64,000 nt of DNA, from NCBI GenBank assembly GCA_959347315.1, contig OY365809.1, forward strand, positions 42,772,542 to 42,836,541, written 5' to 3'. The notes beneath the pieces were generated by a model. It had not been told where the DNA came from, did not search any database, and saw only the letters and a list, made by a program, of their open reading frames with translations. Position numbers and translations under genes: made by a program. Within the stretch, counting starts at the first letter, position 1. The number at the start of each line of letters is the position of its first letter. Positions 10,001-62,599 of this stretch are shown here, in pieces. Source of the DNA: Bimastos eiseni. Its lineage: Eukaryota > Annelida > Clitellata > Crassiclitellata > Lumbricidae.

Positions 10001-12562
10001 TCACATGCAAGGCCTACTTCTTTTCCTATCCACCTTCATCATCTTCAACGCCATCATTATTGTCATCGTCATCGTCATCATCTTCGTCTTCTTCATCATC
10101 ATCAGTTCTACAATTCTTTCTCTCTTCTTACTCTTCTTCTTCTTTTTCTTTTTCTTCTTCTTCTTCTTCTCTACTTTCTTCATCTTCATCTTTCATCTTC
10201 TTCTTCATTTTGTTCTTTACATACATACATACATCACACATACACACATATATACATACTTTATTGTGCTTTTTCTTTTTCCACAACTGCTACTACAACT
10301 CCCCACTTCCCCTACTACTATCACTTCCCCTTCCACTTCACCTACTGTTTCCACTACTATTATTACTACTACTACTACTACTACCACTACTGCTACTACT
10401 ACTATTACTACCGTTTATTCTTTTCTACTTTCTTCGTCTTCATCTCCATCTTCATCTTCATATTTATCTTAATCTCCTTTATCTTCTTCTTCCCTTTATC
10501 TGCTTTACTTTTTGCCTGTTCTTCTTCTTCCTCCTCTTCTCCTCGTCAGTATTATTCGTCATCATTTTCTTCCTCGAAAGAGGGAATTTATTGACAGAGA
10601 GTGTTAGAGAAACAGAGAGGGAGAGGGAGTGAAACAGAGAGAGAGAGAGAGAGAGATAGAGTAAGTGAGAGAGAGAGAGAGATAGAGTAAGTGAGAGAGA
10701 GAGAGAGGGGGGAGAGTGAGAGAGAGAGGGGGGAGAGTGAGAGGAGAAAGAAACAGAGAGAGAGGCTGCCAGACAGAGACAGAGACAGACAGACAGAGAC
10801 AGACATAGACAGAGACAGAGAAGCAGACAGAGAGTGAGAGGCAGATAGCTAGATATGGAGAAGTATACCTACCACTTTATTTGAGTAGAATTCGATTCCA
10901 TAGTCGTTTCTTTCGACGCAGTAGACCCTCTTCCACCTTCTCATCGCTCCTGGTCCCTCGCCTTCCTTCACATCGATGTAGCCAGCCAACAGATCCGTTC
11001 GATCAACCGAATCGAACTGTCACCAAAGAAACCAAACCAAACATCGATCATTTTCGATGCTTGAATGTACGCAAGTGTGTGCATAAAAATGTACTGCTAA
11101 TAATACCAAAATACCAATACCAAAATACCAATACCAAAATACCAATACCAAAATACCAATACCAAAATACCAATACCAAAATACCAATACCAAAATACCA
11201 ATACCAAAATACCAATACCAAAATACCAATACCAAAATACCAATACCAAAATACCAATACCAAAATACCAATACCAAAATACCAATGCCAAAATACCAAT
11301 GCCAAAATACCGATACCAAAAGTCATTAAATTTAAAGGCGTCCATGTTGTCTTCTACACTTGAATGAATGCAAGCATGTGCGTATAATATACGCATATTA
11401 TGTATGTATGCACATAGGTATATGTGTATGTTTGTATGTGTATGTTTGTATGTGTATGTTTGTATGTGTATGTTTGTATGTGTATGTTTGTATGTGTATG
11501 AACTAGTAAGTTTGTACACGTAGGAATAATATATGCTGCTTGAGTGTTTGTGCATCACTCTGTTTATGTATGCATGTATGTGAGAATATGTATATATTTA
11601 TGTGTTTGAATATTATTGTATATTATGTATGCATTAAAAGCGGTGCAGAGCGCACAAGTAGGCATTTGAGAGAGACAACAACAGAGAGAGTCACGCTCTT
11701 TCACTTCCTCGTCCTTCTATTCCAGTTCCTGTTCCTCTTCAGATTCCCTTTCTTCCTCCACTCTTTCTACTTCTCTATCTCTTCAGGTTCCTCTCCCTAA
11801 TCTCTTTCTTTATCTCTTTCTCATCCTCTCCATTATTACTCTATATCCTTCCCCTTCTCTTTCTCTTCCTCTACATCTTCCTCTACCTCTTCCTCTCCAT
11901 ATTCTCCTGCTTTTTCTCTTCCTCTTCCTCTCCCTATTCTCTTTTCCCTCCTCTTCCTCTTTATGTACCTTGTCTTAGTCCTCCTCCTTCTCCATCTTCT
12001 TCTTCCTCCTCTTCTTCTTCTTTTTCACCATCTTGTTCATCTTCTTATGTCACAGGTTCACCGGAGAAAAGCTTTCCATTTATAGGTAATAAGGCAATAC
12101 CTTTTGTCTCAATAGTGAGGCACTGTGCTGTATTCGGTAGAACCCCTGGATCTTTGATAAAACGATTACGAACCAACTCATTCTGAACAATCTCATTGTT
12201 TCCACCCCGAATAAGTTATATAAAGCAATTGCGTATCGTGATTTTAATAAACTCATAATAATTAAGAACAGTGAAACAGAAGCTAGTAATAATGAACTAT
12301 TGGTTCATACACGATCCGATCAATTCTCATCAAGACTGAGGCTTGGAACTTCATGCTAGACCATATACTTACCAGCCTCGGTCTATTCCTGAAATATAAA
12401 GCTTAAAAGTCTTGGCCCTTAATGGACTTACCTCTCTGTACTTAAGTTTCAAGGTCTCTGGCTCCTTTTTCTCCGCTGCTTCTCTGGCTCTCTCGTATAT
12501 TGTCCAAGCTGCATTTAGAGAATATGAGATCCCGAACTGCCCCGCTAGGTCTGTTGCTCTTT
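1072..12562 (-). CDS. NIBAN-like: Niban/FAM129-family protein gene, 12 exons, both ends missing
   Basis: Twelve exons, read from high to low coordinates, have AG acceptors, GT donors and compatible phases, giving about 520 codons. Spans are 12432-12562, 10873-11016, 9855-9972, 8861-8973, 8133-8241, 7455-7564, 6454-6606, 5516-5678, 2921-2994, 2082-2327, 1577-1666 and 1072-1185. The PH-domain exon has RRWKRVYCVERNDYGIEFYS, close to the KKWKERYVVVKNDYAVESY stretch of human NIBAN1. The exon after it keeps the same spacing to a G-x-KVLT motif (GYKVLT here, GGKVLT in human). Later exons match the Niban helical core, for example EMLLEMVMASCLPPVLDLIL and DFDHDAIQLKRDVV. Niban proteins are cytosolic, PH-containing stress-response and anti-apoptotic phosphoproteins; that role is family knowledge only. 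An acidic insert (DDNDDEEEEDEDAQN) lies in the 2082-2327 exon. The start-codon exon was not found, and the C-terminus runs off the left edge. The 9855 donor and the 2994 acceptor are the least certain sites. Confidence 0.75.
1577..1666 (-). CDS. Niban-like gene, core exon GLDATVY
   Basis: Acceptor cttttccttgttag, donor CAG|gtcagt, phase 0 to 0, 30 codons. It encodes GLDATVYTLYLRLESGEDKF then EVLQEKILTQ, corresponding to the part of NIBAN1 just before the YDYDSSTIRKK segment. Confidence 0.75.
1716..1793. repeat. (ATGG/ATGA)n microsatellite
   Basis: Imperfect tetranucleotide array of ATGA and ATGG units in the intron between the 2082 and 1577 exons of the Niban-like gene. Confidence 0.9.
1954..2003. 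repeat. near-perfect 50 bp palindrome
   Basis: AAATGCATGTATATAGCCAT is followed by a TATA-rich centre and then its reverse complement ATGGCTATATACATGCATTT. The arms are about 23-25 bp with essentially no loop. It lies in an intron about 80 bp from an exon donor. Confidence 0.85.
2082..2327 (-). CDS. Niban-like gene, core exon with acidic insert
   Basis: Acceptor tatattttgcaag, donor AAG|gtcagt, phase 0 to 0, 82 codons. Helical sequence such as MKAVYLFALKMSRGLRSVSS is followed by the acidic block DDREEGDDNDDEEEEDEDAQ and then a short return to helix before the donor. The acidic block looks like an expanded GAN/GAC codon tract in a surface loop. It is not in human NIBAN1 as I know it. Confidence 0.75.
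2921..2994 (-). CDS. Niban-like gene, small core exon
   Basis: Donor AAG|gtaaaa is clear. It encodes ISYVRETYWTAVDYDEFPWC. An acceptor at gactgaag (start 2994) fits the incoming phase 1. The better-looking acceptor cgttacag (start 3004) would give an immediate stop unless a further exon lies between 3010 and 5515. Confidence 0.55.
3284..3787. mobile_element. TIR-bearing ATTCG-rich nonautonomous element
   Basis: The ends read ACCATGGAACGACTATTCG on the left, and the reverse complement of the right end reads ACCATGGAACGAATATTCG. Inside is a tandem array (about 3319-3480) of some four units of about 45-50 bp built on AATATTCGTAAATATTC, followed by more ATATTCG words near the right end. There is no transposase. 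A target-site duplication was not obvious, so exact ends are uncertain. It could be a hAT-like MITE. Confidence 0.55.
3966..4030. repeat. (GT)n microsatellite
   Basis: GTATGT and GTGTGT dinucleotide-rich tract ending in GCGTGCGTGC. Confidence 0.85.
4465..4795. mobile_element. foldback-like element with inverted 16 bp arrays
   Basis: Five head-to-tail copies of a 16 bp unit (AATCCGAAGGTTTGAT) lie at about 4468-4548. Two copies in opposite orientation (GAACCTTCGGACTAT) lie at about 4765-4795. Inside these is a 14 bp inverted repeat, CTAGAAGCTGGGTT near 4567 against AATCCAGCTTCTAG near 4671. A further array of the same motif occurs at 29645-29718. Nested inverted terminal arrays are typical of foldback or MITE-type elements. 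Confidence 0.55.
5180..5245 (-). mobile_element. SINE-like 3' tail, minus orientation
   Basis: TTGATATAGCGCCTCTTAAG, then AGGCGCTCCCAGTCC, is the reverse complement of the AGAGGCGCTATATCAA tail found on the plus strand at 22331, 48120 and 51790. It is in an intron of the Niban-like gene. Confidence 0.55.
5516..5678 (-). CDS. Niban-like gene, helical core exon 2
   Basis: Acceptor gcttattctttag, donor AAAG|gtacga, phase 0 in and 1 out, 54 full codons. It encodes VQALLDKIEPVLRRGLTPIA, similar to the LEELMGPVSSGFSEVR region of NIBAN1. The AT-rich flanks and coding-like composition agree with an exon. Confidence 0.8.
6454..6606 (-). CDS. Niban-like gene, helical core exon 1
   Basis: Acceptor gtgtgaatcttcag, donor ACG|gtaaga, phase 0 to 0, 51 codons. 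It encodes MLLEMVMASCLPPVLDLILE then QIKSRL, aligning by eye with the NIBAN1 helix LVMEELLPTLQTDLLPKMKG. The leading ATG is an internal methionine, not the gene start. Confidence 0.8.
6620..7450. other. intron, no feature seen
   Basis: Intron of the Niban-like gene. It is AT-rich unique-looking sequence with short GACAGA/AGAGAC-rich patches at 7240-7430 and no recognisable coding or repeat family. Confidence 0.5.
7455..7564 (-). CDS. Niban-like gene, linker exon
   Basis: Acceptor cttcattctag, donor GAG|gtcaga, phase 1 in and 0 out. The 36 codons include GRAFENTFDKISEKVDSLKG and a GW residue pair where NIBAN1 has GSWEM. The incoming phase fits the 8133 donor exactly. Confidence 0.75.
8133..8241 (-). 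CDS. Niban-like gene, end of PH domain
   Basis: Acceptor gtttcttctgtag, donor AAAC|gttagt, phase 0 in and 1 out. It encodes ERKEWIYFFQTCVRRSK, matching the C-terminal PH helix of Niban proteins, where human NIBAN1 has RFSALLSDCVRHLN. A TAG directly after the donor site supports splicing here. Confidence 0.75.
8861..8973 (-). CDS. Niban-like gene, PH-domain exon (SWALFHP)
   Basis: Acceptor ttaattgtcttag, donor AAG|gtaggc, phase 1 in and 0 out, 37 full codons. It encodes FPHDSWALFHPQRTKYVFRE, occupying the place of the tryptophan-containing late PH-domain strand in NIBAN1. Confidence 0.75.
9235..9485. repeat. diverged tandem duplication, unit about 130 bp
   Basis: TTTGGTGTTTACGCCTACGA at 9239 recurs as TTTGGTGTCTACACCAACGA at about 9369. 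Both copies continue through ATTACTAG, CAGTCGAAGAG, TCGGTGT and AAAGTATTGGC in the same order. It lies in an intron of the Niban-like gene. Confidence 0.75.
9559..10860. repeat. intronic low-complexity block
   Basis: TTAGTATT words from 9559-9790 are followed by the exon at 9855-9972. Then come TCATC/TTC-rich sequence, (TAC)n at about 10359-10412, CTT-rich sequence and GAGA-rich sequence at 10580-10860. Long ORFs in all frames here are pure low-complexity artefacts. Confidence 0.85.
9855..9972 (-). CDS. Niban-like gene, PH-domain exon with KVLT motif
   Basis: Acceptor ctttatcag, phase 0 in. The exon encodes AFDRKKKPKTTIQPTGYKVL and continues TKNIAKPFRDLIKPIAEGL. Phase 1 is needed to join the next exon, so the donor is CTCG|gtctgt at 9855. 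Two other phase-1 donors, ending at 9822 and 9810, would add about 11 or 15 residues. The reading frame stops shortly after those. Confidence 0.65.
10873..11016 (-). CDS. Niban-like gene, PH-domain exon
   Basis: Acceptor tttctttggtgacag; donor GTG|gtaggt. The exon is 48 codons, phase 0 to 0. It contains RRWKRVYCVERNDYGIEFYS, the most recognisable Niban PH-domain stretch in the window. The donor at 10873 was preferred over 10876 because keeping the valine gives exactly the human NIBAN1 spacing from N-K to the following KVLT motif. Confidence 0.8.
11101..11318. repeat. 14 bp minisatellite, about 15 copies
   Basis: Unit ACCAATACCAAAAT is repeated almost perfectly. The last three copies carry ATGCC or CGATACC variants. 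The unit length is not a multiple of three and the unit has no stop codons in several frames, which explains long spurious ORFs on both strands. Confidence 0.95.
11413..11502. repeat. 14 bp minisatellite, about 6 copies
   Basis: Unit TGTATGTGTATGTT is tandemly repeated, about 100 bp from the previous array and with the same period but a different sequence. Confidence 0.9.
11690..12060. repeat. CT-rich low-complexity intron
   Basis: TCTTCCTCT-type polypyrimidine sequence on the plus strand (purine-rich in the gene's sense strand). No coding signal. Confidence 0.8.
12432..12562 (-). CDS. Niban-like gene, first recognised exon (N-terminal helix)
   Basis: The acceptor ttcttgcacag and the donor GAG|gtaagt are both strong. 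The exon enters in phase 1 and leaves in phase 0, with 43 complete codons including GISYSLNAAWTIYERAREAA. It sits where Niban proteins have the helix before the PH domain. An upstream exon ending in phase 1 with the start codon must exist, but I could not identify it between here and 18 kb. Confidence 0.65.
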
Positions 12563-17659: not shown

Positions 17660-18490
17660 AACAAGAAAAACTGGACGTAAGCCATTGCACCTTCAGAGAC
17701 AGAAGATTAATTTTCCATTCGCTCAGAGTGCCAGCAAACTTTGAAGTGCAAACTGACCTATAGGCCTACTCTCCATATTACAAGCATTACACAATTTGAA
17801 GACTGAAAAGATTTAAAGGTTTAATTGTTGAGTGCCATATTAGGCGCTGCGTCCAAGCAATTAGTCCGGGTGTGATGGTATTAATGGTTTTCTGTTTAAC
17901 TAAACTGTGTCGTAACGCTTGTGATTAGCGACGCCCTCCTTTATTTTAGCTGTTGAATGGCGCCAACAGAAATGGAAGTGGCAAGATTACTGCCAAATGC
18001 GACAGAACGCAATAAAGGATATTTGGTTATATAATATAATGACTTTTTTATGTTCGTCAGAAGGTTTCACAGGGAATCGTAATCAGTTTCAAGTTTAAAA
18101 AATTAAAATAAAGTGTTTTACCTAGATACGGTACGTTCTGAAAGAATGGTCATTTATTCCACTAAAATAGGAGATTAATAAAATGTGTATTGCACTAAAC
18201 AATTCTACGAAAAAAAAGAAGCAAAGAAACAAAGTTTCGAATTTCTGCATTGAACAGTTACTTAGTCTATTTGATCTGCTTACAGTCAGAAATATGCAAA
18301 CAGAATTGATGAAACCCAAATATTCTCTAAGTTTTATGTGGTCGGACTTATATAAATGGTTCGCCGTATTTGCACCTTTGTCGTTACTGAAATCCTCCAC
18401 CGATTGTTTGGAGTTTTCCACATCACATTAAAATAAGGTCAAGGATTGAATGTTGCTAAAGTCACTTTGCCATGATCATTCTCGATTATA
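17660..18490. other. no convincing gene
   Basis: AT-rich sequence downstream (3') of the peptide-precursor gene on the minus strand. ORFs at 18122-18431 are AT-driven and lack start or splice context. Polyadenylation-type AATAAA words occur on the minus strand but no single one stands out. Confidence 0.4.
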
Positions 18491-18494
18491 AACG

Positions 18495-19265
18495 CTAGAC
18501 AATCTGGTGGTGTCCAAAACGATCAAACGGTTTTCTTGAATCTTTTGCTTCACGACAACCTTTGTCTTTGATGCCGTCGGAATAGAATAAAGGCAGAAGT
18601 GGGGAAGTGGTGAAACTGCTGAGTGGAAACTCTTGTTTTCCAAATGTTTCTGCTTCTTGTGGATCAATTGATTGATCAAAATGATCATCGCGCGAACGCT
18701 TTCGTCTTTTCCCAAAGTTAACCAGAAATTGATGCAACAGTCTGTGCCTTTGTGATGCTCGATCGTTCAGTTTGAAGTAACTTGTTCGCCAGTCCGAATT
18801 CTTGCCTAGGTCAGCAGGAAAGGGTTTCGCGTTCGCATTAGATCTTTTTCCAAGGTCTGCTCGAAAAGATTTCAGTTTAATCGGCATTCGGGCAGGTCGT
18901 CTCTTCGGTAACAGTCGAATGTCTACTCCAGGAATTCCGGAAAGCTCCTGGATTCTGGAAAGTTCGAGGATGTCAGGATTCTTTTGAAGAACATGCAATA
19001 TTCTTGAATATCTCTTTACGGAAGGAATTGTGCGAAGCACCTTTTGAATTCTGCTGAGAGTGAAGTCAGGTTGTATGGCTTGGAGTTTCACAGGTTGCAC
19101 CAAGGACATGATGCGTTGAGGTGGCGTCTCACCTGGTAATGGCACAAGCCAAGTAAGTTTTGGTGGAGAGATCGCATCGGAAGCTGTATCGTCTGCTCGA
19201 GCGATATTCCGACTCAGCGACCAACAGATGTTGAGACACAGCAGAGCAATAATTATGACCGCCAT
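18495..19265 (-). CDS. putative neuropeptide / peptide-hormone precursor
   Basis: A 256-codon ORF starts at ATG 19265 in a strong context (AGCAGCATGG). The frame is open for 21 more codons upstream but has no ATG there. Residues 1-24 are a clear signal peptide (MAVIIIALLCLNICWS). Basic sites follow: KR 84-85, KRR 121-123, GKR 139-141 after SFRADL, and GKRRKR 185-190 after LLHQFLVNF; the two glycines would give C-terminal amides. Cleavage after KR-141 and at 185 would release a 43-residue amidated peptide. Internal repeats are LSRIQ-x5-IP-x-V (70-83, 102-114) and SFRADLGK/PFPADLGK (133-140, 148-155). Only one cysteine lies outside the signal peptide. I recognise no family. The length of the amidated peptide is like CRH/DH44-type hormones, but the sequence match is not convincing. 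Confidence 0.6.
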   Translation of the reverse strand: MAVIIIALLCLNICWSLSRNIARADDTASDAISPPKLTWLVPLPGETPPQRIMSLVQPVKLQAIQPDFTLSRIQKVLRTIPSVKRYSRILHVLQKNPDILELSRIQELSGIPGVDIRLLPKRRPARMPIKLKSFRADLGKRSNANAKPFPADLGKNSDWRTSYFKLNDRASQRHRLLHQFLVNFGKRRKRSRDDHFDQSIDPQEAETFGKQEFPLSSFTTSPLLPLFYSDGIKDKGCREAKDSRKPFDRFGHHQIV

Positions 19266-19362: not shown

Positions 19363-19959
19363 ACCTTAATTAAATTTTATTATCGGATTGAATGACTTCA
19401 AAATTGATCTAAACCATGCATTTCAATTGGTGAGATCGAATGTCATAATCAATAAGCAATACGGTTTTTCTTCAAGCCAGGACTACAAGTTACTATAAAT
19501 AACTTAGTTCTATGACTTCTATTCAGTCATAAATGCAAGATCGCAATTGACTTTCGCGACAAAGGTACGTAGACAATTAATATAATTCATAAAATTCAAT
19601 ATAATTTAACTAATTAAATCAATCATCTCAAAATCCCTAGAACTTCATATATCTGCAGATTCCCTTTCTAAATTAAAGTTACCAAAATCTCACACATCCA
19701 TTCACAATTAGGTCGGTAAATATGATGACAATGATCAACGAAGTAGAATTCCTTACAAAATCAGTTTGATGAGCACACAACACAACGTTATCAGAGCTTC
19801 CGCCTGTCTTCAATCTGTGACACGTATTTATATCCTCAGTCCTTGATACTCTTAAAATCTTATGGTAGATCGTCCCATACGCCGTTTTGTTCCATCCCGC
19901 TGACAAGTTGTCTGTTTTGATCGTCTATTGAACACCTATCACCAGAATAGACGACTCGC

Positions 19960-23786: not shown

Positions 23787-26225
23787 CTAAGTGAGGGTTG
23801 GCAATGTCCCGAAGAAGCAGGCTGCGTTCCCACGCTGAAGGACAACTGAGATACGTTGGAACAGAAATGACGTCTCCATTGGATCGTGGGTTGCAGCACT
23901 CGTTCGACTACCCAACTCTGAGATGAACTCCAGTCCTTCACTGCTCCAAGCGCCGCCGGATTCCAAGGAGAGGGCTACGAAGTCGTGGGTGTTGGTTATG
24001 GTGGAATACTTGGTCCTCTTCGTCTTAGCTGCGCGTTCGGCTGCTTCGCCAGCTCTGATAGATGTGTCGACAAGATGTGACTTGGCGTAGGTGTCGGGCA
24101 CTGTCACATCCCATGCCAGACATCGACCACGTGTCCAAGGAATGAGCGTGACGCCGTCCGGTCGCTTTCCATCTTCTCTTAGCAAGCCGAGAGGTTCCTT
24201 TTGCGCTGGAATCTTCGCCCTGCCAAGAGCTCTCCAGATGACATCGTTCAACATGCTGTGTCGTTGATGTTTTCCGCTGCCTCTTCTACAAATTAGTCCA
24301 TGGAGCCCTTTTGCGTCGACGCTCTCTTGACATTGGTGACACAAATGTGGCTCGCAGAGCGTCGTTCCTAGCCTCAACCCGGCTGCCAGTCGTACATCCT
24401 CGTTTGAGAGGCGCAGGCCTAGGGCAGTCACAGGGGGCGCTAGCATCCAGTCTCCAGAATGAGGTGCTCGTGAGGCCAGCAGGCGAGCACGGTCGCATGG
24501 ATTGTTATTGGAATCCAGCAGACCTTTCCATGCCTTGTCTGTGAATCGGAGGTCCCATTCTTTCTGGCGATAACTTGCTGCTCCTGTTGGTGGTTCTGCA
24601 TCTGTCAGGGTCTTCCAAGCGTTGAGTGCTGAACTCGCAAGTTCATATGGTTCCTCAGCAGACTCTGTTGGTAGGATGCATGCCTGGAGTTCGCTTGTAC
24701 TCGCAGCAGAAGCCAGAAAGGCAGAAAGTGCCAGCGTAGATGCACAACGAACTCCCAGACCACCATCTCTCACCGGCAAAGAAGCCTGGAGCCAGCGGTC
24801 ACCGTCAAGGTCCACATTTAAAATGGTTGACAGTCCTTCTCTCAGCAGTTGATCAAACCGAGCCAAGCCCGGGCAATCAGCGCAGACGGCTGTGCGCAGA
24901 CTGTACAAGAGCTTCGGTACACTTAGACTGTTTCTTAGCAGAACCAGAGCGTCATGTGTATAAAGCAAGGACAATCTTCCGATTGCCCTCTCGAGGTCAT
25001 TGGCCTTTGAATTAACGACCATGTTCACAGCTGGACCTGAAATTAGAGGTGCACCCAACAAGGTCATGTCCTCGAGGGCTATGCTCGTGAACTCTTGGAA
25101 CGCAGGGTCATTGTTCGGCATCTGGGTGTTGTGACACGCGATTTCGCATTTGCTGCGGTTCAATAGCAATCCCAGATTCTTTGATTCCTGCTCGATTAAT
25201 TGAACGTCGTCGGCCACTGTTTCCTTGTTACCTCCCAATGTCAGGTCATCCAGATATCCGATACGCAGATCCGAACGAAGCTTCATCAGAATCGGTTGCA
25301 GCACAAGACAGAATTCCAGAGGTCCCAAAGGATCGCCTTGCTGCGTTCCTTCTTCGGATCGAATTGTGTTTGAACCATAGCGCAACAGTGGACGGTTTGA
25401 ATAGGCAGCGTGAGCAAAGTGGTAGAGCTCTGGGATCTCTCTAGCAACTGCCTCTAGAAGACAATCTCTGCGCAGAGTGTTAAAGGCATTGGCGAAGTCG
25501 AGCTTCACTAGGACGCTGTCCTCAGGCATTGTGGAAATCCAGCGACGTGTCGCATGGACAGCTGCCTCAGCGCCTCCTGGAATGCCTACCCCAAGCTGAA
25601 TGGGGGCGAGCAGTTGAGACAGCCTTGTTACCGCATGCGAATTAGCGCACTTTGCCGCCAGACGACGCCATGTGTAGCCCACGGCGATCGGTCTTATGCC
25701 TCCGTCCTTCTTGCTCAGGGCTAAAAGGTTTGCCCCATAGATGACCTCATTCACCTCTTCGGATAGACCTCCCTTTAGGAGCAGATTGACAAGGTCAGAT
25801 AGATGTTGCCCGATGTTGTCATCTACTCCATAGGCCATCAGATCCTTTAAGTGTTGTGGAGTAATGCCATCTGGACCACCAGCCGAATCCGCAGGGAAAG
25901 AGGAGATTGCCCTAGCGACATCTTCTTTAGAAACTTGAAGCGGGATGAAGCGATCGGAACTGTCTGGATCACATGGGGTTCTCCTGTCCACTGGTGCAGG
26001 CGGGTGCTTTTTCTTAAGCGCGGCCAGAGTTTCAGGTGTGTCCAGTGCCGGTTTGTCCTCGCTGCAGATGAGACGGATGGCTGCCTTGAAATTGCCTTCC
26101 TCCAGCTTGCTTGCAACTGTTGAGGCTAAATACCTGGCGTGGTCGCATTTAGCGGACTTGAGCTTACGACTTGACGTCAGTGGCAATTCATCGTTAGTTG
26201 ACTGGTCTGGTCCCTGCAGTTTTTT
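23787..26225 (-). mobile_element. RLE-type non-LTR retrotransposon (R2/R4/Dong-like), 5'-truncated
   Basis: One uninterrupted frame encodes 799 residues from codon 26186 and stays open through 13 more codons into the flanking TAA repeat. Codon 26186 is TTG, and no ATG opens the frame, so the 5' end is missing. Residues 104-115 are GPDGITPQHLKD; the RT boxes follow at 228-236 (KLDFANAFN), 280-289 (GTQQGDPLGP) and 311-314 (YLDD). C-terminal to RT come a CCHC-like cluster (C616, C619, H629, C633), then KRPDG (674-678), WDVT (692-695) and KRTKY (723-727), the restriction-like endonuclease layout of R2/R4/NeSL-type LINEs. The R2 zinc fingers upstream of RT are absent. The lack of stops or frameshifts means a young copy. 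R4/Dong is my best clade guess because Dong targets TAA repeats. Confidence 0.85.
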
Positions 26226-36259: not shown

Positions 36260-39251
36260 ATTATTATTATTATTATTATTAATAAATTTGTAACGCGCAC
36301 AAGATCACACCTAAATGGGAATCTGAGGCGTGGATAGTCAGTTGCCAGGAGAAGATGCAATTAGATTTCCAAATCCTTGAAAGCCAAAGAGAAATAGTGA
36401 GTTTTGAGTCGCTCTTTGAAGGAAGGAAGTGAATTTGAGCAGGCTCTCTCTTTGAGAGAGTGGCAGTCGATTCCATTCCCTAGGAGCAGAGACATGAAAT
36501 ACATGAGAGCCCATAACTGTTCTGCATCGTGGTTCAACTAAAAGACCTGTACTTTATGATGGTAAGCAACGAGGAGGAATGTAAGGAGTTAGTTGAGCAT
36601 GAAGGTAGGTGTACTGGTGATGAACGCTTTGTAGGTCAAACAAGCTAACTTAAATTTGATTCTGAATTCAACAGGGAGCCAATGCAGCTGGTGGAGTTGG
36701 GCAGAGGAGCATGTTCGTAGTGGGACACGTAGCACTACTCGAGCTAACGTATTTTGGATACGTTGAAGCCTTTTGAGTTCAAGGTCTGAGAGACCGACAA
36801 AAAGTGAATTAGCATAATCGAGGCGAGAGGAGACAAGTGAGCAGGCTATAGTCTCAGACATATTTTGGGTTAGAGCCGACCTTATGTGATGTATTGCCCT
36901 GATGTGGTAGAAACAAGATTTACAAAGGCTGGTTATGTGAGGTCGAAATGTGAGCTTGCTGTCGAGGGTAACCCCAAGTGTTTTGACAGAGTCTGAAAGC
37001 GGCACAGCTGTGCCCGCCTGTTCAATGCTAGAGAGCCTAGGGAAAGAACGCAGGCGTTGACATGAGCCAAATACAATTGCTTCAGACTTGTCTGGGTTTA
37101 TGGCCAAACCATTGAAACAGAACCATGCATATATGGATGAGAGGCATTCTTCCAGTTTTAGTTTACCAGACTGATCAGTGTGTGACAGGGAGCTGAGTAT
37201 CATCTGTATACTGTTGTAATTGAATTCCAAAGTGTTTAGCTATACGACTGATTGGGGAAGTAAAGACTGTAAATAATAAAGGGCCGAGGACAGATCCTTG
37301 TGGCACTCCAGCAGTGCAAAGTGTGGGCTCCGACCGAGCAGATCCAATGCCCATCTGCTGATTGCGGTCAACCAGGTATGAAGCTAACCAGTGTAAGGCA
37401 GTCCCAGAGACACCAAAGCTTTTTGCAAGTCTTGCAAGGAGTTACTGGTGGTCTACAGTGTCAAAGGCTGCATTACGGTCAAGACACACGTAGAGGCAGG
37501 CTTTACCATTGTCAATAGATGAGAAGATGTAATCCAATGTAGAGACAAGAGCAGTTTCCGGGGAGTAGCCTTCGCGATATGCTGACTGGTAGGGACTGAA
37601 GTTGGGAGAGGAAGTAATGTGTCTCTTGACACCCATAAGAAAAAGACGTTCAAGGATCTTCGAAATGTTATTGAGGTTGGAGATAGGTCTGAAGTTAGAC
37701 AAATTGCTAGTGTCAAGGTCAGGCTTTTTAAGTAAAGGCGCGACTAAAGCAGATTTGAAGCATGAAGGAAAGAACCCTTCAGCAAAAGATAGATTGGCCA
37801 AGTGTGCAATGAGGTGAGAGAATACATCAGAACAAGAGACGATGAGTGATGTAGGTATGAAGTCCAATGCTGATGATTTAGGAACCATGCTATTGAGAAG
37901 ATTAAAGACTTCAAAGAATGTGACAGGAGTTATGTCATCGAAGGCAGGGCCGGAGAATTCGGAGTCGAGCAGCAGGTCACTCCACACTAAATTAGCAGCA
38001 CATCTAGCAATTTTACATTTAAGATCAATAAGTTTTTTAACAAAAATTGCAGCAAAATTTGCACACATAGTCTGATTTTCTGTGTCTGAGCGTTTGCCGT
38101 TATTTCTATCCTTTGAGTGTAGAAGACGCTGAGCAATGCGCCATCCGTCCCGAGGATTATCAACACTTTCAAGTTGACTGCAGAAATACGAGCTTCGTGA
38201 ATCGTTTATGAGTTTATTTGTTACACGACAGTGTCGACGATAACACTGCCTATCCTCATCAAGTCCAGAATGTTTCCACTTTCTTTCAAGTCGACGACGT
38301 TCCTTCTTCGCACCGGATGCTTCAGATGAGAGCCATCTAGTAATAGGTTTAGATGGTCGCCTGTAGCAAGTCTGAATCGGAGCGAGTTTGTCCAATATCA
38401 GTGACACTGTTGTTTTCATTTTTTCGGCAAAATCGTTTGCACTGCTTGCAGAAGCTAAAGTACTAATTTGTGATCCGATATAAGACCAGCATCGTTCACG
38501 TGCGTGTCATAGACTGTTGTTCGATCATCGGCTGCTGGAACGTCTAAGATGTTACCTTCTCGGGTAGGGATTTCAATATACTGGTGGAGACCGTAGGTAT
38601 CGAAGTTATCGGCCAGTGTGCTATTCATTCGACCTCCAGATCCAGGGCAATTAAGAACTCCACAGAGCACAAGTCTTTCACCAGCCTCAACACAAATGGA
38701 TGAAACTAGGTTGGCGAGGTCGTTGTAGAAATCTCCTATTGTACCCGGTGGGCGGTAGATGTTTCCAATAGTTATAGATGAAGATGATCTGCCCAATCCA
38801 ACTAGTTGAAGTTCACACGAGGAAGTGCAGAGCTTGAGGATTGAGGATGTACGCTGACCTCTAACGTGGACCTGTAGATAAGAGCGAGACCCCCGCCAGA
38901 CACTGAGCGACCTGAGGATCCATTCTGATGAACATGGAGAACAGAGAAGCCTTCAGGAGCGATGTCACGCTTGATACAATCAAGAGTGTCAGCACAGATC
39001 CACGTTTCACATAGTGCCAGTATGTCCAGCCTCTCGTCTCTGATGAGGTCATGTATGATGGCTGAGCGACGGATGGCTGAACGGATGTTGAAGCTACCAA
39101 AGTTTATAGACGATGGTTTCAATGTAGGCTTATTGGACTGGACTTGGCGGGAGAGTGGCCCAGGGCTGCTTTCAGTATCACCCGATAGTAACAGAAGCAG
39201 TGCAACAGATATGCATGATAAAGAACGACGGTGCTGGGGACGAAAGGGCAT
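36260..39251 (-). pseudogene. L2/CR1-like LINE ORF2, near full length, inactivated
   Basis: Starts at ATG 39251. The N-terminus has a hydrophobic run and a degenerate 2A-like motif (LLLLLSGDTESSPGP, residues 18-32). The AP endonuclease has FNIRS, CETW and, after a frameshift near 38820, IGNIYRPPG, CGVLN in place of the usual GDFN, and SDHK. A second shift lies near 38440. RT covers 37442-38419: NFRPISNLNNISKILERL and CLDRNAAFDTVDH. A TAA stop at 37442-37444 breaks D-T-V-D-H-Q|LLARL, but the frame continues to VPQGSVLGPLLF and YTDD (about 37199-37210). A third shift leads to NPDKSEAIVFG, LGVTLDSKLTFRPHI and LHWLPVEFRIKFK. The element ends in an (ATT)n tail at 36260-36281. At least three frameshifts and one stop make it dead, but all domains remain recognisable. 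Confidence 0.85.
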
Positions 39252-53459: not shown

Positions 53460-54600
53460 CATAACCGTAACCATAACCATGTGTTTTATTGTACCAAACA
53501 TAAACAATTATCATTTTAGAACAGAAGAACGAGATTGGAAGGGTACAATCGGGATACAATATAAGCCCTAAAGGGACCAACTGGTCCCGCTAGCAGGGCC
53601 ACCCTTACTAAAAGTTCACGGCAGCAGGTTAAATAAACATAAGATAACATAAAGTAAACTAACTTAACTAGTTAACTAAAAGAACAAGAGTGACATACAG
53701 AAAGTGCAGAAAATGTTATCACACAAAATTAGAAAACAGGTAATCTTTAAGTTTAGATTTGAAGAGATAGTAGCTGCTAACACCACGTATTTCAACAGGG
53801 GTTTGATTCCAGGAAATTGGGCCAGCACATTTGATGGAAAATCTTCTTGTATTGGTCCTACCAAAAACAGGTCTATAATTTTGAGAGGAGCGTGGGCTGT
53901 AAGGATTAACAGTGGAAGTAAGGGTAAAGTACTTCCTAAAAACAGGGAGCAACTGATTGTTGGTGTATCTATACATGAACTCGTTTAATTGCAGAAGTGT
54001 TATTTGGTCAAACCTAGGTATTAGAAGCTGACTGAAAATGTGGTCTATGTTGTGGATGTAAGACAGGCCAGTGATCATGCGCATTGCCTTCCTTTGCAGA
54101 GTGTGTAGTCTATTTAGTCTAGATTGGTAGTTGGATGCCCAAATTAGATTGCAGTATGTTAAGTATGGATGAATCATAGTGAAATATAAGTTAGTTCGGA
54201 TGTTTGCAGGTAACAAGTAGGCAATTCTTGACAAGATTCCTATATTTTTTGCTATTTTTAGTGAAATATTCACAATATGGTCATTCCATGTGAGAGATTG
54301 ATCAATATATATATACAAAGAAATTGAACAGATTTAACTTTGGATATGGGGATGTTGTTAATAAGCAAATATTCAGTTATATTGTGTAAACGTTTACGAT
54401 GTGAGCAAAAGAGTATATAGTTGGTTTTAGAAATATTTAGTGATAACTTATTCGAAATAAACCAGTCATTCACATGGGACAATTCTTGATTCATGAGCTG
54501 GAATAATTTTTCATAAGATTCATGTGAAGCAAAAATATTGGTGTCATCTGCAAAGAGGAAGAAGTTTAGTAAGGAGGAGGCATTGGGCAGATCATTTATG
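53460..54600 (-). pseudogene. 5'-truncated CR1/jockey-type LINE fragment
   Basis: The minus strand begins INDLPNASSLLNFFLFADDT (catalytic FADD), then DWFISNKLSLNISKTNYILF. After one frameshift near 54310 come 199 uninterrupted codons: IGILSRIAYLLPANIRTNLY, LQRKAMRMITGLSYIHNID and RRFSIKCAGPISWNQTPVEI, ending SNFV-stop at 53719. The 3' UTR ends in GGTTAT/GGTTAC hexamers (about 53455-53482). The 5' break is fused to a (TATG)n array. Younger than the 40430 copy because only one frame break is seen. Confidence 0.85.
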
Positions 54601-54626
54601 TACATACATACGTACATACATACATG

Positions 54627-54658
<32 letters not shown>

Positions 54659-54870
54659 CATACATACATACATACATACATACATACATACATACATACA
54701 CGCATACATACATACATACATACATACATACATACATACATACATACATACATACATGCATACATACATACATACTTACATACATACATACACGCATACA
54801 TACATACATACATACATACATACATACATACACGCATACATACATACATACACGCATACATACATACAAA
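54598..54870. repeat. (CATA)n microsatellite, 270 bp
   Basis: CATA units with periodic CACGCATA and CATGCATA variants. It begins exactly at the 5' break of the LINE fragment. Confidence 0.95.
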
Positions 54871-55492
54871 CATAGATTAGATGTGTGTCTATTTCTGTCG
54901 TATGCATGTGACGATACGTGGCTCCGTCTGTTGCTTGCTATTTCTATTAAACGCTTTCTGTAAAAGGCCAAATGTATTTCCAATGTGTATGTAATTATGT
55001 GACGCCTTTAACTGCAATTCTCATTGTCCTTTCCTGTGGATCACAGCGTTAAGGTCAATCGTTTGAGCTTATCTGTTCGTTTGTAGGTTTCCTATGTCTG
55101 TCTATCCGTCTGTCTGTGTGTCTATCTGTCTGTATGCTGGTTAACTGCATATTAGTTGTTTATCGGGAACTCCATCCTACGTCAGGTACACTTCATTAGA
55201 AGGCCCTTCTAACATGCAATGCGTCCTCGGACATGCGCACTGCGCAGACGGATAGTCACGCCGTGCGGACGATAGCAAATACCGTAAAAGAACTAATTAG
55301 TCACGTATTCACATAAAAAAGACTTAAATAAAGAAATATATGGCACGAAGAGATGAGGAAAGATACTAAAATGTTGAAATGTGCACTTTGATCGGCGCTG
55401 TTTAGGCGCAGTTCATTGCACACTTTAGTTAATGTTCTGAAACGACAATTTAAGGGCCTAAAAATACATGAATGACTAGATATATGTAGGCC

Positions 55493-62146: not shown

Positions 62147-62434
62147 AAAAGCACACACAGAGACAAACAGAAAAGCACACACAGAGACAAACAGAAAAGC
62201 ACACACAGAGACAAACAGAAAAGCACACACAGAGACAAACAGAAAAGCACACACAGAGACAAACAGAAAAGCACACACAGAGACAAACAGAAAAGCACAC
62301 ACAGAGACAAACAGAAAAGCACACACAGAGACAAACAGAAAAGCACACACAGAGACAAACAGAAAAGCACACACAGAGACAAACAGAAAAGCACACACAG
62401 AGACAAACAGAAAAGCACACACAGAGACAAACAG
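62147..62434. repeat. 24 bp minisatellite, 12 copies
   Basis: Unit AAAAGCACACACAGAGACAA then ACAG, exactly 288 bp, with no mismatch seen. The unit lacks stops in several frames on both strands, so the 24 bp period gives five or more spurious repeat ORFs. Confidence 0.97.
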
Positions 62435-62599
62435 AGTGCTGTCCCAGTGACCATGAGAAGTGTTAGCATTTCCAATGTTGAAATTTCAACCAAAATTTCT
62501 TCATCCAATCAGTTAGTGGCGCCTCTAGCGAATGAAATGTACTTTCTTAATGTTCCATGGTGTTGCCTATAATATAGGCGCAAGATTATATTAAAACTA

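Follow-up and report, generated by a model that had tools for sequence, protein, structure and literature searches.

A probable earthworm precursor gene for amidated peptides of FRxDL-amide type

The minus-strand open frame at 18495..19265 of the window (the whole 64,000-nucleotide stretch of Bimastos eiseni DNA analysed here, C4:42772542-42836541) is very probably the precursor gene of an annelid (earthworm) family of amidated peptides with the C-terminal consensus FRxDL-amide. This reading draws on a signal-like start, conserved dibasic sites, glycine donors, one intact copy of the motif, and six further frames in the same genome that carry the motif. As is general among precursors of amidated peptides, the frame has dibasic sites with a glycine donor (GKR and GKRRKR) together with a KRR site, and these are conserved in a homologous protein, P0002.

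The precursor frame and its homologue

The 256-codon frame runs from a start codon at 19265, the first in-frame ATG after an upstream stop, to a stop codon ending at 18495; on the plus strand, the frame tried across the same interval contains many stops. The protein of the frame was used as a search query (P0001). The features below were read from the frame and its flanks.

18495..19265, minus strand: precursor coding frame by translation, 256 aa plus stop, intronless inside; P0002 covers 99% of it, and its own-genome match is single at E<=1e-3
19212..19265, minus strand: putative signal peptide, residues 1-18, predicted cleavage after SLS; hydrophobic stretch with mean 3.1-3.4; 12/18 residues identical in P0002
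19014..19064, minus strand: block FTLxRIxKVLRTIPSVK, residues 68-84, the best conserved outside the amidated cassette
18897..18905, minus strand: KRR cleavage site, residues 121-123, identical in P0002
18852..18896, minus strand: likeliest mature peptide, PARMPIKLKSFRADL-amide, residues 124-138; 12/15 identical in P0002, with KRR and GKR flanks in both
18843..18851, minus strand: GKR amidation and cleavage site, residues 139-141, identical in P0002
18714..18842, minus strand: predicted 43-residue peptide ending in FLVNF-amide, residues 142-184, containing PFPADLGKN; its P0002 counterpart is split by GKK
18798..18824, minus strand: second motif copy, altered, PFPADLGKN (PFRADLGKK in P0002)
18705..18731, minus strand: third motif copy, altered, QFLVNFGKR (PFRVDLGKR in P0002)
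18696..18713, minus strand: GKRRKR amidation and cleavage site, residues 185-190; 5/6 residues identical in P0002
19267..19756, minus strand: possible 5' UTR intron with a GTAAGG donor at 19756 (motif scan only)
19827..19832, minus strand: possible TATA box, TATAAA (motif scan only)
18153..18158, minus strand: possible polyadenylation signal, AATAAA (motif scan only)

The CAG acceptor of the possible 5' UTR intron ends, in the motif scan, one base before the start codon; as motif matches only, the GTAAGG, CAG and TATAAA elements suggest a non-coding first exon.

A whole-protein search of 5.8 billion proteins returned a single relative, P0002, a protein of 301 aa that is 55% identical over 99% of the window protein (E 1.7e-63). 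Searches of this collection rely on shared 5-residue words and similar length, and they gave two homologues in total, P0002 and P0003, the latter described below. At the protein level the window protein aligns to P0002 throughout, and conservation peaks at the processing cassette and at one block ahead of it. Within the cassette, KRR (3/3), residues 124-138 (12/15) and GKR (3/3) are identical to the extents given, while the spacers diverge, with 19/49 residues identical over residues 19-67 and 13/41 over residues 216-256. In the block ahead of the cassette, residues 68-83 are identical at 14/16 positions; immediately to their right the window reads KR and P0002 reads KG, so this cleavage site is not conserved. 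It could represent an additional peptide, or else a helix that acts in sorting.

Simulations agree with a coding frame. None of 60 order-3 Markov windows contained an ATG frame of at least 256 aa, and when the sequence was evolved neutrally to about 60% identity, only 2/300 copies kept the frame open; the copies averaged 5.4 stops. The frame also holds two G[KR][KR] sites; at the rate seen in the six-frame translation of the window, a stretch of 256 residues would have 0.2. Together, the match to P0002, the simulations and the conservation of the cassette show that the frame at 18495..19265 is protein-coding. The hydrophobic N-terminus, MAVIIIALLCLNIC, is by itself weaker evidence of coding, since its mean hydrophobicity is reached by 5 of the 103 ATG frames of at least 60 aa in the window, the precursor included.

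Much of the original prediction stands on these data. It had described a peptide-hormone or neuropeptide precursor, which the conserved dibasic and amidation sites appear to bear out, with a hydrophobic signal-like N-terminus, which is present as described. The dibasic sites (KR at residue 84, KRR at 121) and the two amidation signals it listed are likewise there and, for the amidation signals and KRR, conserved in P0002. Cys 237 is, as it had noted, the sole cysteine beyond the signal peptide, and its internal repeats (an LSRIQ.../LSRIQ... pair and a SFRADLGK/PFPADLGK pair) and the 43-residue interval that separates the GKR sites were all found. It had also named in advance the conservation of the GKR-flanked segment in relatives as a check, and that segment is conserved in P0002.

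The best-supported product of the precursor is likely PARMPIKLKSFRADL-amide, and the longer peptide ending in FLVNF-amide is also a likely one; read from the sequence, the intact peptide end is FRADL-amide. Cleavage at the single Lys 132 would instead give SFRADL-amide. No dibasic site lies within six residues ahead of a motif copy in the window protein (0/3) or in P0002 (0/3), compared with 24/28 copies in the other seven precursors discussed below, so the short SFRADL-amide would not be freed by dibasic cleavage alone, and the peptides of precursors of the window type would extend further towards the N-terminus. The 43-residue peptide is predicted to stay uncut because the Lys-Lys site found mid-peptide in P0002 reads Lys-Asn here.

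In neurons or endocrine cells the precursor would enter the secretory pathway, where prohormone convertases would cleave at KRR and GKR, a carboxypeptidase would remove the basic residues, and PAM would convert the exposed glycine to an amide. Cu2_monoox_C, the family of the C domain of copper type II monooxygenases, has matches in the same genome, but these are not specific to PAM. Once released, PARMPIKLKSFRADL-amide would be secreted and act on a putative G-protein-coupled receptor; the longer FLVNF-amide peptide would also be secreted, possibly with a weaker or a different activity.

Motif copies across the genome

The genome searched comprises 660 Mb in 118 contigs. Because the window protein found only its own locus there at E<=1e-3, the tie between this gene and other precursors rests on the motif, and the longest word that it shares with any other own-genome precursor is the nine residues SFRADLGKR. 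When the DNA was searched with the pattern F-[R/S]-[A/G/V]-D-L-G-K-R, 11 sites were found compared with 1 for the reversed control; ten read FRxDLGKR, and one, on C12, reads FSGDLGKR. These sites fall in five precursor-like open frames, the window gene and four others. With a looser pattern that allowed K, N, S, R, H or Q as second residue and any residue as third, there were 30 sites compared with 6 for the control, 19 of the 30 within seven precursor frames.

C4 45.35 Mb, C10 5.92 Mb, C12 1.91 Mb and C12 15.26 Mb: other precursor loci from the strict pattern, each frame 151-300 aa long and carrying two to six copies
C2 25.85 Mb and C9 11.03 Mb: precursor frames added by the looser pattern

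The remaining 11 looser-pattern sites were dropped as not precursor-like, two (L033 and L038) on account of a stop codon within the matched letters and nine for lying in frames without a second copy. Among the nine are three identical FREDLGKR sites (C2:2585692, 2604413 and 2617096), 31 kb from first to last and each in a 22-residue frame, which we take as repeat copies or a decayed exon.

The seven own-genome frames hold 25 copies, of which 20 are strict FRxDLG, and in three precursors (C4 45.35, C12 1.91 and C9 11.03) an FRxDLG is directly followed by the stop. Peptides predicted from the other precursors include ALPFRSDL-amide and GLPFRSDL-amide. A hydrophobic stretch precedes the first copy in five of the six frames other than the window gene, with 11-residue means of 2.3 to 3.4; in the C12 1.91 frame the stretch is present but no Met comes before it, and no signal-like stretch was found ahead of the first copy in the C4 45.35 frame (0.4) or the P0003 frame. 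P0003, a 113 aa protein from another source, has six copies (e.g., KR-TPFRGDL-GKR), five of them with a dibasic pair no more than six residues upstream. By score alone its match is weak (E 0.18, in a search with fragments of the window protein and P0002), and a genome search with P0003 matched C4 45.35 and C2 25.85 no better than E 0.004-0.006. A further candidate from that search (L050, E 5.3) was dropped because it lies within a tandem repeat. The octamer FRADLGKR is common to the window protein, C4 45.35, C12 1.91 and P0003. IMG/VR and GTDB contigs searched with A1 and P0003 held no relatives.

Across nine precursors (the seven own-genome frames, P0002 and P0003), the copies that fit F-x-x-[D/N]-[L/F]-G number 34; 28 of them have R as second residue, 32 have D as fourth and 33 have L as fifth, and in 31 a dibasic pair or the protein end comes after the glycine. 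Altered copies occur in members other than the window gene as well, namely FTVDLGKP and FRVNLGKQ in P0003 and FSGDLGKR on C12. When loci are compared codon by codon at the five fixed residues, 503/800 comparisons (0.63) show a difference, where the codon usage of these frames leads one to expect 0.44-0.82 per residue. Since this mixing is near expectation, it is the amino acids and not the DNA that are conserved, and the copies are old. The members have the motif in common and little else.

We assign a protein to the FRxDL-amide family here if FRxDLG occurs in it at least once with a dibasic pair or the protein end after it, and the window protein carries such a sequence in SFRADLGKR at residues 133-141. 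Two further traits are usual in the family without defining it. One is the possession of several intact copies; P0002 has three (SFRADLGKR, PFRADLGKK and PFRVDLGKR), and the window protein has one intact copy, SFRADLGKR, and the two altered ones. The other, a dibasic site no more than six residues before a copy, is absent from both. Seven or more precursor-like genes bearing the FRxDL motif in one earthworm genome point to a multigene peptide family, within which the window frame is, on its sequence, the furthest drifted of the seven, as two of its three copies are no longer FRxDL. Judged against the family consensus, P0002 would show the older state of the copies.

This comparison alters how the C-termini of the window precursor are to be read. 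FLVNF-amide had been put forward as the defining end, yet P0002 has PFRVDLGKR at that place and R follows F in 28 of the 34 copies; it follows that the family ends in FRADL and that FLVNF is the exception, most likely a derived end produced by alteration of a motif copy. Nor does the 43-residue peptide look like the ancestral product, given that its counterpart in P0002 is split by a Lys-Lys after PFRADLG.

With two of three copies altered, the gene may be losing its function. A decaying paralogue, that is, a former FRxDL-amide precursor with little or no expression here that is on its way to becoming a pseudogene, would account for the substitutions that separate the window copies from those of P0002 at key positions (R to P, R to L, D to N, L to F, and KK to KN). 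It would also suit the finding that the last 45 residues of P0002 have no significant counterpart beyond the window stop, the score there being matched by 26/60 shuffles. (An alignment started within the shared FDRFG passes the stop only via a frameshift, and we base no claim on it.) Nevertheless, we regard such decay as improbable, for all 256 codons are open in a protein that can be aligned to P0002 throughout, the first copy, KRR and GKR are unchanged, the second site keeps five of its six residues, and altered copies are known from other members too. Far less probable is a helical amidated peptide of the CRH/DH44 or ELH type, of about 30-43 residues and ending at GKRRKR. The length and the basic, leucine-containing stretch RASQRHRLLHQFLVNF before GKR resemble such peptides by eye. 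However, neither P0001 (at E<=1) nor P0002 (at E<=10) matched any Pfam family, no relevant solved structure came out of PDB sequence searches with P0001, P0002 and P0003, and the segment in P0002 ends as an FR[A/V]DL copy with another amidation site before it. Pfam gave only a chance match (E 0.27) for P0003. A chance open frame without function is scarcely credible: simple repeats abound in the window and yield long spurious frames, but such a frame would have neither a homologue at the E-value of P0002 nor a motif family in its own genome, and no simulated window held a frame as long.

Returning to the reading of the frame as an FRxDL-amide precursor, we tentatively entertain a further possibility, which we consider on balance rather unlikely. 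The FRxDL-amides could be an undescribed multigene family expanded to at least seven precursors in the earthworm (clitellate) lineage, in which the window member has become specialised, with FRADL-amide carried in a 15-residue peptide and FLVNF-amide as a new active ending. If the reading of the frame as an FRxDL-amide precursor is true, earthworms would carry a large set of amidated-peptide genes that ordinary sequence searches overlook because conservation hardly extends beyond FRxDLGKR; there would be a concrete list of peptides for receptor screening, and an example of copy-by-copy drift inside peptide precursors.

Surroundings in the genome and the window

The original prediction had looked to echinoderms, hemichordates, amphioxus and molluscs for relatives, and the mitochondrial gene order and the erythrocruorin linkers instead identify the host as an annelid. 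A 4.3-kb stretch of the 15.3-kb contig C118 reads ND3, a tRNA with TCT anticodon, ND2, COX1, trnN, COX2, trnD, trnY, trnG and COX3, all on one strand and in the invertebrate mitochondrial code. The identities of ND3, ND2, COX2 and COX3 are probable, the TCT tRNA we take to be trnS1, and ATP8 presumably lies between trnD and trnY; the order is that of annelid mitochondria. The annelid erythrocruorin linker family has matches at 11 places in the genome. The same search found none in 14 control genomes, of which those named are prokaryotic, so that it provides no control on other animals. The best linker match is to the hemoglobin linker L1 of 2gtl (120 residues, E 1.7e-67, 228 bits, about 97/120 identical), and the same linker matches 4u8u less well (161 bits); 2gtl is from Lumbricus and 4u8u from Glossoscolex. 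A lumbricid earthworm is the likeliest source. An initial placement among marine deuterostomes or molluscs, prompted by the original prediction and by an excess of TAGGCCTA, was abandoned in the light of the gene order and the linker match.

COX1 has 35 matches in the genome in all, including six COX1-length copies on large contigs (C15:21.21 Mb, C16:17.60, C6:9.53, C6:24.03, C5:29.76 and C4:35.37). In these six TGA is the only in-frame standard-code stop, and they are apparently recent mitochondrial inserts. At C1:62.49-62.63 Mb, eight Cu2_monoox_C matches lie within about 140 kb, likely as a tandem array.

Elsewhere in the window, frames of LINE-like elements lie at 23787-26186, 36589-38419 and 53719-54983. 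RVT_1 scored over the cut-off at 23787-26186 and 37442-38419 and below it at 36589-37230 and 54270-54983, with no match at 53719-54318. Perfect or nearly perfect tandem arrays occur at 62147-62435 (a 24-base unit, 12 times) and 11102-11321 (a 14-base unit, 15.7 times), and TAGGCCTA was seen 10 times on both strands where base composition predicts 0.8. Rfam and tRNA scans of the window found nothing, and ten other exon-like frames in the window had no Pfam match over the cut-off.

Comparison with known peptide families

No FRADL-, FRGDL- or FRSDL-amide neuropeptides were found in the open-licence PMC literature, a search that sequences given only in figures or supplements would escape. Precursors of the myomodulin and FMRFamide types are multi-copy, with C-termini -LRL-amide and -RF-amide, respectively; they resemble the FRxDL precursors in having a signal peptide, many short copies and G-K-R, and differ in those C-termini. 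The xenacoelomorph WDLamides (PMC6188537) share the -DL-amide ending, but they have a Trp before the amidated DL and no FRxDL core, and the phylum is a different one.

The closest likeness is to the annelid DLamides. According to PMC3503879, the Platynereis DLamide is YYGFNNDLamide and the family is reported from Platynereis, Capitella and Helobdella; two other papers describe DLamide orthologues as confined to annelids (PMC3890597; PMC7737342). In Platynereis larvae, according to PMC5130983, DLamide brings about upward swimming via ciliary beating. The middle of the FRxDL-amides is mostly R-x (x being A, G, S, V or Q) and not N-N, and the earthworm genome holds no fewer than seven precursor loci; in the window precursor one copy is intact, and no dibasic sites adjoin its copies. 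Since earthworms are not known to have a swimming larva, such peptides would serve another purpose there.

These differences leave some room for the FRxDL-amides being an independent family of the earthworm lineage unrelated to the annelid DLamides, which we consider a serious prospect, albeit with less than even chances. Only F-x-x-D-L-amide is common to both. The pattern F-x-N-D-[L/F]-G-K-R gave 4 own-genome matches against 2 in the control, none of the four with the FNNDL core and none with a second copy in frame, and the search of 5.8 billion proteins, with its need for shared words and similar length, gave only the two homologues. Against independence stand the identical spacing of F-x-x-D-L-amide, the shared phylum, and the report of DLamides from Platynereis, Capitella and Helobdella (PMC3503879).

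The FRxDL-amides are not without kin, as the original prediction had supposed when it knew of no family with these C-termini: the motif occurs in seven own-genome precursor frames, and the peptides are probably allied to the annelid DLamides. Helobdella, like the earthworm, is a clitellate. DLamide precursors contain repeated copies cut at KR, an arrangement seen from sequence in the earthworm genes studied here, and the lack of an FNNDL core among the four F-x-N-D-[L/F]-G-K-R matches would fit the FRxDL-amides being a local form of DLamides. Both have an amidated -DL C-terminus in an annelid, the window reading FRADLGKR; and in both, as in the YYGFNNDLamide that PMC3503879 gives for Platynereis, F lies five, and D and L two and one, residues from the amidated C-terminus.
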